This document shows, piece after piece, positions 19,952-23,043 of a stretch of 64,000 nt of DNA. Under the pieces are notes generated by a model. The model was not told the origin of the DNA and did no database searches. It worked only from the letters and a program-made list of their open reading frames with translations. The DNA is from Acidimicrobiia bacterium. Lineage in GTDB: Bacteria > Actinomycetota > Acidimicrobiia > IMCC26256 > JAGPDB01. The DNA is taken from NCBI GenBank assembly GCA_018057765.1, contig JAGPDB010000001.1, forward strand, positions 186,001 to 250,000, given 5' to 3'. The stretch's first letter is position 1, and each line of letters begins with the position of its first letter. The position numbers were made by a program, and so were the translations under genes.

Positions 19952-20533
19952 TTATTCTACTAAATCATTTTTAAGTTGTGCGATTGATGCAGTACTTAAA
20001 ATAGCAGTATGTGTATACTGAGGATGATTGATGCTCAAGCTTATCTCATTATCACATTTTAAGAATTTTTCTCTTTGATCATCAGGAAATTCAAAGAATA
20101 TATAGTGAACAGCAGAAGTCGCTTCATCATCACGTGTCAACCGTTCTTCGTCAAGTTCATATGCTTTTACAGTTTCATCACCAAAATTAATCTGAATATA
20201 TTTCTGTATTCCTGCAAGTTTAGGGAGCCATTCCCTCAACTGAGATTCATTTGTTAATTCAATAAACATCGTAGATTTTAATATATTGCGAGAAGGGATT
20301 AAATCATTATAAACCTTTAACTCACCTTCTATTTTTTCATCTGTATAAAGTTTTTCTGCTCTTGCCATTTCTTGAATTTGAAAACGCATTGTTTCCTTAT
20401 TCTCGAACATGAATGTTAAGAATTTACCTACATGAATCCGTCTTATCTTTTTGATAGCTATAATATTTTTACGAAATTCTTCTCGCTCTTTCTCATAGGC
20501 TCTTACATCTTTAATATCATCTAGCGTTAACAT
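19952..20533 (-). CDS. DUF3501 family protein
   Basis: The 193-aa protein shows the DUF3501 profile: an opening LDDIKDVRAYEKEREEFRKNI, then RIHVGKFLTFMFENKETMRFQIQEMARAEK, an LIPSRN loop and late conserved LREWLPKL. Members are usually next to rubrerythrin and an HdrD/GlpC-like Fe-S protein, as here. The biochemical role is not known, though a part in peroxide or redox protection is inferred from context. Two extra partial copies of its first nine codons lie upstream in the 77-bp tandem repeat. The ATG at 20533 is the only one that opens the full frame. Confidence 0.9.
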   Translation of the reverse strand: MLTLDDIKDVRAYEKEREEFRKNIIAIKKIRRIHVGKFLTFMFENKETMRFQIQEMARAEKLYTDEKIEGELKVYNDLIPSRNILKSTMFIELTNESQLREWLPKLAGIQKYIQINFGDETVKAYELDEERLTRDDEATSAVHYIFFEFPDDQREKFLKCDNEISLSINHPQYTHTAILSTASIAQLKNDLVE

Positions 20534-20687
20534 AATTTCTCTTTTCCTTAACTACACTCGGAATAACCTAAAGCCATTCCTCCATCTTTAATATCATCTA
20601 GCGTTAACATAATTTCTCTTTTCCTTAACTACACTCGGAATAACCTAAAGCCATTCCTCCATCTTTAATATCATCTAGCGTTAACAT
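20506..20687. repeat. 77-bp tandem repeat spanning the DUF3501 start (2.4 copies)
   Basis: A 77-bp unit begins at 20506, 20583 and 20660, and the last copy is cut to 28 bp. Each copy carries the DUF3501 start codon and first nine codons. On the reverse strand the two upstream copies give identical 20-residue mini-ORFs, MLTLDDIKDGGMALGYSECS, at 20687-20625 and 20610-20548, each with its own stop. The 77-bp period is not a multiple of three. The copies appear identical, suggesting a recent duplication. The outermost ATG overlaps the stop of the Fe-S protein gene (TGATG). Confidence 0.93.
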
Positions 20688-22009
20688 CATTCTTCTTCTC
20701 TTTTTTTTGTAGCTTTCACTTCTCCGTTAAACATTTCATTTCCATAAGCCGCATTAAGCACTTGTATGGGATGTACGGGCAAACGACCTGTACCTTCCTC
20801 AATTGCAGTATTTGCTAAATTGCAATCTCCTGCAACTAAGTTTGATTCTTTTTTATTGACAAAATCCATAAGTGGTTTTGCTATTTTTCTAGCCATAGAG
20901 ACATTTTCTTTTCTTAGACCCCACGTGCCATCTATTGCAGAGCAACGCGTCGTCATTTCCACTTTTGCGCCAGTAAGTTTCATCAATAATGACGATTGCG
21001 GGCCCATATTTTGTGCTCCATAGTGACATGGTTGGTGCCATGTGATTGTGTCAAATGTTTGACCATCAAAATCCTTATTTAATGGACTGATTTTATGTTG
21101 CTTCATCAAATATTCACTTACATCATAAGTATTATCCGCCACTTTTTGAGCATCTTTTGAACCTAGATAGTCGATGTAATCTTTTTTCAAAACGTAACCA
21201 CAAGTTGGTTGAGGAACAACAATATCGTATCCTTCATCGATTGCTTTTGATAATATCTCAACATTCTTTTTTGCATTTTTTGTAAAACTTTTTGTATCTC
21301 CTGCATCAAGATGTGGCATCCCACAACATACCTGACCTTTTGGCAATGTACATTCAATCCCATTTTTTTCGTATACACCAACAACGGCTTTACCTATATC
21401 AGGGTTTTGATATTCAACTAAACACGTTGGAAATAAAGCAACTTTCACATCACGCTTATTAGTAATATTGCTTGTACGTTTTTTAAACCAACTAGAAAAT
21501 TTAGTAAATGTAAATGTAGGTAAAAGTCTTTCTTTGGAAATACCCGTTGCTTTTTCTATGATAACTCGCACTGGTTTTATCTCATTTGTTTTATTAAAGA
21601 TAGGTGCAACTTTTGTTACTAGTTTTCCTTGCATATCTGTCTTAGCAAGAAGTTTTGCGGAACGCGTTGTTTTACCGTCTTGATTCATTATAGATAATGC
21701 ACGTAACATTAAACGAGGAAAATCTATATTCCATTCTGTATCGGTTTCTGGATTATAAGGACAATTCGTGTAGCAAAGTTTACATTGGAAGCATTCATTG
21801 ACTATTCGGTCATTCTCTTTTTGAGTTATAGCTGATGAATCACCTTCATGAATTTCATCTACCATTTGAAATAATGATTTGAAGCTATAACAATATTTAA
21901 TGCAAAGTCGACAGTCGGCACATTGATGAAATGTTTGATCTAATTCTTTTTTTAAGTCTGCTTTATCGAAATATAGATCATCTAGTGGATCATATAATGA
22001 AGTTGTCAT
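20687..22009 (-). CDS. Fe-S cluster protein, HdrD/GlpC-like (CCG domains)
   Basis: The 440-aa protein has two 4Fe-4S ferredoxin motifs, C30-x2-C33-x2-C36-x3-C40 and C73-x2-C76-x2-C79-x3-C83, followed by two CCG-domain blocks, one with VCCGMPHLDAGD and one with TWHQPCHYGAQNMG. This is the architecture of HdrD and GlpC electron-transfer subunits. No flavin partner is adjacent. It is grouped with rubrerythrin and DUF3501, so it could pass electrons to peroxide reduction, which is inferred. The C-terminus is Lys/Glu-rich (KKREEE) and the stop codon overlaps the first repeat ATG. Confidence 0.92.
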   Translation of the reverse strand: MTTSLYDPLDDLYFDKADLKKELDQTFHQCADCRLCIKYCYSFKSLFQMVDEIHEGDSSAITQKENDRIVNECFQCKLCYTNCPYNPETDTEWNIDFPRLMLRALSIMNQDGKTTRSAKLLAKTDMQGKLVTKVAPIFNKTNEIKPVRVIIEKATGISKERLLPTFTFTKFSSWFKKRTSNITNKRDVKVALFPTCLVEYQNPDIGKAVVGVYEKNGIECTLPKGQVCCGMPHLDAGDTKSFTKNAKKNVEILSKAIDEGYDIVVPQPTCGYVLKKDYIDYLGSKDAQKVADNTYDVSEYLMKQHKISPLNKDFDGQTFDTITWHQPCHYGAQNMGPQSSLLMKLTGAKVEMTTRCSAIDGTWGLRKENVSMARKIAKPLMDFVNKKESNLVAGDCNLANTAIEEGTGRLPVHPIQVLNAAYGNEMFNGEVKATKKREEE

Positions 22010-22179: not shown

Positions 22180-22602
22180 TTATGCGTCTAAGTTTTCTAA
22201 TGCTTTCGCAAAACGACCAGCATGGCTTGTTTCGGCGCGCGCTAATGTTTCGAACCATTCTGCCACTTCGTCAAAACCTTCATCTCTTGCGGTTTTTGCA
22301 AAACCAGGGTACATCTCACTGTATTCATAAGTTTCACCTACTACTGCAGATTTAAGATTATCTTCTGATGAACCAACAGGTTCTCCAGTAGCTGGGTCTC
22401 CACAATCCTCTGCTAAAAAGTCAAAATGGCCAAAAGCATGCCCAGTCTCACCTTCTGCTGTTGAACGAAATACTGCTGCAACATCTGGGTATCCTTCTAC
22501 ATCAGCTTTCTGGGCAAAATACAGATACCTTCTATTTGCTTGGCTTTCTCCAGCAAATGCTTCTTTTAAGTTTTCTTCTGTTGATGTTCCTTTTAGGGTC
22601 AT
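22180..22602 (-). CDS. Rubrerythrin (erythrin, without rubredoxin domain)
   Basis: A 140-aa four-helix diiron protein. The two iron-binding repeats are seen: Glu19 ([12 protein letters not shown]), Glu52 and His55 ([11 protein letters not shown]), then Glu90 and Glu94 (VVGETYEY) and Glu124 with His127 ([12 protein letters not shown]). Rubrerythrins reduce hydrogen peroxide to water. The C-terminal rubredoxin domain is absent, as in erythrin, so an outside electron donor is needed, possibly the downstream Fe-S protein. The gene lies 21 bp after the PerR-like regulator, with a TGAGGAGAA-like ribosome site in between. Confidence 0.95.
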
Positions 22603-22623
22603 CTTCTCTCCTTTGTTGTTTAT

Positions 22624-23043
22624 TTACATTCTTTTCGCACATGACTTACAAATCCCTTTATAAATCACTTCGGTTTTATCAATTTTTCCATATTCTGATA
22701 TTTTATTATTTATATAATCTTCGTTTCTTAAAACATCATAGACTGATTTACATTCGGAGCAGACAAAGTGGTCATGATCATCTTCAACGTATGGATCTAC
22801 TCTTAGTTGCCCCATCCCCAAATCTATTAAATTAATAGCTCCAAGCGTATCTAAATCGCTGACTATCTGATAAACAGTCTTTAAAGATAGTGTTGGCTGA
22901 TCTTTTGATACTTTTGCGAAGATCTCATCAATTGTAGGATGACTGTGGTTACCAGAAATAGCCTCTAAAACAGCTACGCGTTGTGGAGTAATACGTCCAC
23001 CGCCACTTCTTAATAAACTCACGAGTTCAATAACTGATTGCAT
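22624..23043 (-). CDS. Fur-family regulator, PerR-like
   Basis: The 139-aa protein has the Fur winged helix (RITPQRVAVLEAISGNHSHPT) and the dimerisation region. Two CxxC pairs (Cys95/98, Cys132/135) form the structural zinc site. The regulatory metal set aligns with B. subtilis PerR: His35, Asp83, His90, His92 and Asp103. The Asp at the PerR D85 position favours iron-catalysed peroxide sensing over iron homeostasis. It precedes rubrerythrin in the same orientation, which fits a peroxide-response operon. A 17-bp inverted repeat lies 19 bp upstream. Confidence 0.9.
   Translation of the reverse strand: MQSVIELVSLLRSGGGRITPQRVAVLEAISGNHSHPTIDEIFAKVSKDQPTLSLKTVYQIVSDLDTLGAINLIDLGMGQLRVDPYVEDDHDHFVCSECKSVYDVLRNEDYINNKISEYGKIDKTEVIYKGICKSCAKRM

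Follow-up and report, generated by a model that had tools for sequence, protein, structure and literature searches.

A 77-bp tandem repeat copying the start of a DUF3501 gene separates it from its Fe-S oxidoreductase neighbour in an Acidimicrobiia bacterium

We analysed a stretch of 64,000 nt from contig JAGPDB010000001.1 of an Acidimicrobiia bacterium (assembly GCA_018057765.1), hereafter the window, in which a short tandem repeat lies at the junction of two minus-strand genes. The upstream gene (20687..22009) encodes an Fe-S oxidoreductase (CCG / 4Fe-4S) of the RFO type, and the downstream gene (19952..20533) encodes a DUF3501 protein of 193 aa, which matches PF12007 with an E value of 6.6e-60 over profile positions 2-187 of 187. 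Genes for a rubrerythrin and a Fur-family regulator are located just upstream of this pair, on the same strand (window positions 22180-23043). A cluster of aerobic-type rubrerythrin, RFO and DUF3501 genes, in which the RFO type of Fe-S oxidoreductase adjoins the aerobic-type rubrerythrin, is described in the accessible text of PMC5114695, and the genes around the array follow that order. What this text describes is the gene order, and it makes no mention, in the accessible part, of a repeat at the RFO-DUF3501 junction.

Read directly from the window, the array (20506-20687, minus strand) is 182 nt long and has the arrangement X-Y-X-Y-X. X comprises the 28 nt with which the DUF3501 gene begins and is present in three identical copies (20660..20687, 20583..20610 and 20506..20533), the last of which is the real 5' end of the gene, the array thus extending 28 nt beyond the DUF3501 start codon. 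Y is a 49-nt spacer, present in two identical copies (20611..20659 and 20534..20582). TRF reports the same structure with a period of 77 bp, 2.4 copies, 99% matches and no indels (20506-20691), and gives it the highest score of all arrays within the window. Both approaches bear out the 77-bp tandem repeat copying the DUF3501 start that had been reported in a preliminary description of this DNA, with the correction that the copied part, given there as ATG plus nine codons, is the ATG, eight further codons and one base, i.e. nine codons in all.

The array contains three ATGs, at 20687, 20610 and 20533. The first two open mini-ORFs of 20 codons (20625..20687 and 20548..20610), which encode the same peptide, MLTLDDIKDGGMALGYSECS, and end at a TAA stop that is held by Y, 14 nt upstream of the next ATG. 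The TGA of the Fe-S ORF, which terminates at 20687, overlaps the first array ATG by 1 nt (TGATG), and the distances along the junction are therefore -1 nt from the Fe-S gene to mini-ORF 1 and +14 nt from each mini-ORF to the next ATG. One AAGGA is supplied by each Y, 11 nt upstream of the ATGs at 20610 and 20533. The two 20-aa mini-ORFs, the TGATG overlap and the AAGGA-like site ahead of the second and third ATGs had all been proposed beforehand, and each is found in the sequence. The mini-peptides themselves are probably without function.

The junction was surveyed at 32 loci, comprising the array genome, 29 relatives (of the 41 relatives with a match), the same-genus genome G001 and the locus L099. 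The Fe-S end and DUF3501 occur together at 25 of these loci (the array genome and 24 relatives); at six others the stretch lacks an Fe-S end, and the L099 locus gave no DUF3501 match. The DUF3501 start could be assigned in 23 of the 24 relatives, with no recognisable start in the remaining one (L023). In these 23, the gap between the Fe-S gene and DUF3501 lies between -11 and +33 nt (at -11 to +2 nt in 18), compared with 153 nt at the array. In none of the 24 relatives did TRF detect an array 500 nt or less from the junction. G001, whose Fe-S protein is 68% identical, is the only other genome of the genus that holds the Fe-S - DUF3501 pair, and its DUF3501 gene shares its first 11 nt with the end of the Fe-S gene, no insert being present. 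In the alignment to G001, the Fe-S end and the first X match the first part of the junction, and the region of the true start matches what follows; the first X copy falls on the G001 DUF3501 start, next to the Fe-S stop. In G002, a genome of the same genus given as 94% complete, neither the Fe-S protein nor DUF3501 has a match, and the pair may therefore be lost there. A search of the genome contigs with DUF3501 yielded no named close relative, and with the Fe-S protein it yielded four, the best of which belongs to the Actinomycetota MAG that carries L099 (52%).

Because the two genes overlap without an insert in G001, and because the relatives have short gaps and no array, the array is, to judge from the compared junctions, derived, and the ATG at 20687, within the first X copy, stands at the original DUF3501 start position. 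The same comparison shows two 77-nt units (Y + X) now separating DUF3501 from the Fe-S gene, where most relatives have the two genes overlapping or almost adjoining. The preliminary description had regarded the ATGs ahead of the DUF3501 start as decoys. Extra ATGs are indeed present, but the comparison with G001 identifies 20687 as the ancestral start and 20533 as its displaced copy.

The array occupies a single locus. The 77-nt unit has no second place in the 1.76-Mb genome, and 21-nt and 26-nt pieces of Y, searched with up to 3 mismatches, match the two array copies only, so that a source of Y was not found in its own genome. A chance match is excluded for Y, the 21-nt piece having two exact matches against 0.00 expected in shuffles. 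Y has no match in G001 or G002, nor in viral contigs and plasmids, and phages returned only seven weak records (best E 0.2, with a match spanning a third of the query). Against 450 kb of the genome, the longest exact match to Y is 14 nt, a length equalled or passed in 20 of 100 shuffles. An origin of Y as a copy of the Fe-S tail was considered and rejected, as 95 of 500 shuffles score as well. The simplest account of Y would be that a first duplication brought in filler DNA and that the complete unit was then duplicated again.

Copied starts were surveyed in the same 450 kb (the window and 20 further stretches), a start being counted when the 20 nt that begin at a possible start recurred within 400 nt upstream. 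This was observed in one of the 371 genes examined, the DUF3501 gene of the array, and a copied start is therefore no used device of this genome.

The 450-kb sample also contains other arrays with a period above 60, namely of 294, 126 (two places), 135 and 67. The 294-bp repeat is a perfect pair (L039:15943-16522). The period-126 arrays, found on two contigs (L043:11196-11716 and L054:3770-4091), probably correspond to repeat proteins, 126 being a multiple of 3. The 67-bp unit (L053:11439-11587, contig C4) occurs in 2.2 copies in the interval from tRNA-Arg(tct) to tRNA-His; each unit resembles, by eye, a decayed tRNA 3' half, which would make this array a further repeat at a gene edge in the genome. 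A perfect 25-bp tandem pair, TTGCAGGGACGGACCCTGTTGGATA, is located on contig C2 in apparently non-coding DNA (L049:2626-2675).

A stop-start overlap of -1 nt is a typical coupling junction, and the 11-nt spacing between AAGGA and ATG is longer than the usual optimum. The anti-Shine-Dalgarno sequence is present in the genome carrying the array, and the Shine-Dalgarno match computed against it is -5.1 kcal/mol at 20610 and 20533, versus -2.9 kcal/mol at 20687. A match better than -5.1 kcal/mol is found in only 10 of the 52 ATG-start ORFs of the window. As reported in the accessible text of PMC10666635, reinitiation depends very strongly on distance, and about 20 nt almost abolished coupling. In the E. 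coli experiments given there, 38 nt removed 80-90% of the coupling for two pairs and all of it for a third, and shorter distances gave pair-specific results, with a strong but pair-dependent loss at about 14 nt (PMC10666635).

Our best reading, to which we assign a probability of about 0.55, is that the array is an intercistronic tandem repeat produced by a recent start-spanning insertion/duplication, and that it changes the coupling and initiation of DUF3501. The rearrangement is supported by sequence, and from it we infer an effect on expression. The two-unit insertion would have shifted the DUF3501 start away from the stop-start overlap. A ribosome finishing the Fe-S gene would restart at the old start, 20687, and make a 20-aa dead-end peptide; since it would now restart into this mini-ORF, DUF3501 would no longer be fed by the -1 nt overlap. 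A ribosome on a mini-ORF would stop 14 nt before the next ATG, with two such steps needed to arrive at DUF3501, which would be reached through two weak reinitiation steps together with fresh initiation at the AAGGA-bearing start. The likely outcome would be a looser coupling to the Fe-S gene and a more independent initiation of DUF3501, and the ratio of DUF3501 to Fe-S protein would be expected to be altered depending on the number of units, with a net sign that may go either way. Since the Shine-Dalgarno match is better at the copied starts, the array could raise, rather than lower, DUF3501 initiation. The 11-nt spacing of AAGGA and the ordinary RNA fold of the region speak against our reading. 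It may also be near neutral, because many codirectional gene pairs lie far apart with no known effect; in this genome, 39 of 262 such pairs have gaps of 100-200 nt.

A tenable explanation, which we hold to be possible and somewhat less probable, is that the array is neutral mutational debris, i.e. a tandem duplication with filler whose downstream start was kept by chance, neither under selection nor of any real consequence for DUF3501. The identity of the copies, as expected after a recent event, would fit this explanation, as would the single locus, the one copied start among the 371 genes examined, and an array region that has no RNA family and no unusual fold. However, the relatives mostly keep the Fe-S gene and DUF3501 overlapping or nearly so, and a displacement of 153 nt is expected to have some effect, because, according to the accessible text of PMC10666635, coupling is sensitive to short gaps in the species that were examined. 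An RNA or DNA control element has also to be weighed, since Y contains an imperfect palindrome (GGAAT, 11 nt, ATTCC) that could act as an operator, or Y1 and Y2 could form an RNA duplex hiding a start. The palindrome is present in two copies, the predicted fold pairs Y1 with Y2, and a Fur-family gene is nearby, but the frequency of this palindrome in the window is that of chance (3 found versus 3.00 expected at one mismatch), and it is absent beside the rubrerythrin and Fur-family genes. We found no promoter-like or terminator-like site in the array region, the RNA fold of this region is not unusual (z -1.57, with 13 of 200 shuffles folding as well), and an Rfam search of the region gave no match. 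The operator, promoter, terminator and known-RNA readings were rejected in view of the chance-level palindrome, the lack of such sites, the weak fold and the negative Rfam search, and a control element in Y is in our estimate very improbable.

The preliminary description had also raised the worry of an assembly artefact. In that case a short-read assembler would have doubled a unit of which the cell has one copy or none. The copies are exactly identical and the draft assembly is split into 51 contigs (1.76 Mb), as such an artefact would have it, but the array is located inside an unbroken contig of 258 kb. We compared the contig starts (51) with the far ends of all contigs other than C49 and C50 (49 ends); setting aside both ends of C51, which read as N, leaves 98 usable ends, among which 13 pairs overlap, each by exactly 127 nt, with no other overlap length; the assembler k was therefore probably 127. 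The longest exact repeat at the array is 105 nt and all 127-mers are unique in the 1.2-kb region, so that the array forms no cycle and its two units are resolved at k=127. A longer array would tend to cycle at this k and break the contig. The overlaps of 127 nt, set against the longest exact repeat of 105 nt, largely answer the worry. A simple assembly artefact behind the array is unlikely, and we leave it only a marginal chance, although minor variants of the array may exist beside the assembled form.

The array, read as a start-spanning duplication that changes DUF3501 coupling and initiation, can be set beside repeats described in mycobacteria. The senX3-regX3 MIRU unit is 77 bp long. MIRUs, as related from Supply et al. 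1997 in the accessible texts of PMC12548453 and PMC2734929, are short repeats in operon intergenic regions, located at a start codon and carrying a small ORF that is coupled to the next gene, the stop of the small ORF overlapping the next start by 4 nt. Like a MIRU so described, the array lies between codirectional operon genes, at a start codon, and carries a small ORF. In contrast to a MIRU, it takes 28 nt of each unit from the downstream gene, and it is not interspersed, being restricted to one locus in the 1.76-Mb genome. The stop of each array mini-ORF is 14 nt before the next ATG, whereas the spacing described for MIRUs is -4 nt, and the only overlap, of 1 nt, is that between the Fe-S stop and mini-ORF 1. 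Because it is not interspersed and has a different stop-start spacing, the array is not a MIRU.

The other comparison is with the rnc-fpg1 VNTR (ETR-F / VNTR3239). According to the accessible text of PMC2734929, mycobacteria that do not belong to the M. tuberculosis complex have an rnc-fpg1 junction of 1 to 54 bp, mostly of a few nucleotides, whereas members of the complex have 279 to 358 bp of direct repeats there, which end at the fpg1 start codon and are built of compound units of 37 / 18 / 26 / 16 bp. Copy number varies, with six repeat-pattern classes among 32 isolates and higher mRNA for longer arrays (PMC2734929). The array resembles this VNTR in being a lineage-specific tandem array at a downstream start, absent from relatives (0 of 24), and differs from it in copying the first 28 nt of the gene itself, a feature that the accessible text of PMC2734929 does not describe for rnc-fpg1.

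In outline, the array may work like the MIRU and rnc-fpg1 repeats, which are its closest precedents. The earlier suggestion that it could alter DUF3501 translation is plausible, and these mycobacterial cases are precedents for it. A further proposal, which we consider doubtful, is that the number of units would set the fraction of ribosomes lost in 20-aa dead ends, so that copy-number slippage would tune the ratio of DUF3501 to Fe-S oxidoreductase in an oxidative-stress operon, and the array would be a gene-derived, single-locus counterpart of a MIRU. Our literature search for start-spanning tandem duplications and repeat-borne mini-ORFs, judged from titles and the openings of abstracts, returned nothing on point, and we do not claim absence from print beyond it.

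The array is real, derived and confined to a single locus, and with its mycobacterial precedents it is a modest find. It would represent, outside the mycobacteria, an early stage after a start-spanning insertion into a compact operon junction, with the ancestral arrangement still readable in a relative. Versions with 0, 1 or 2 units would provide a clear measure of the cost of a displaced start and, if the number of units varies, the array would be a simple means of adjusting how much of one operon protein is made relative to the other.
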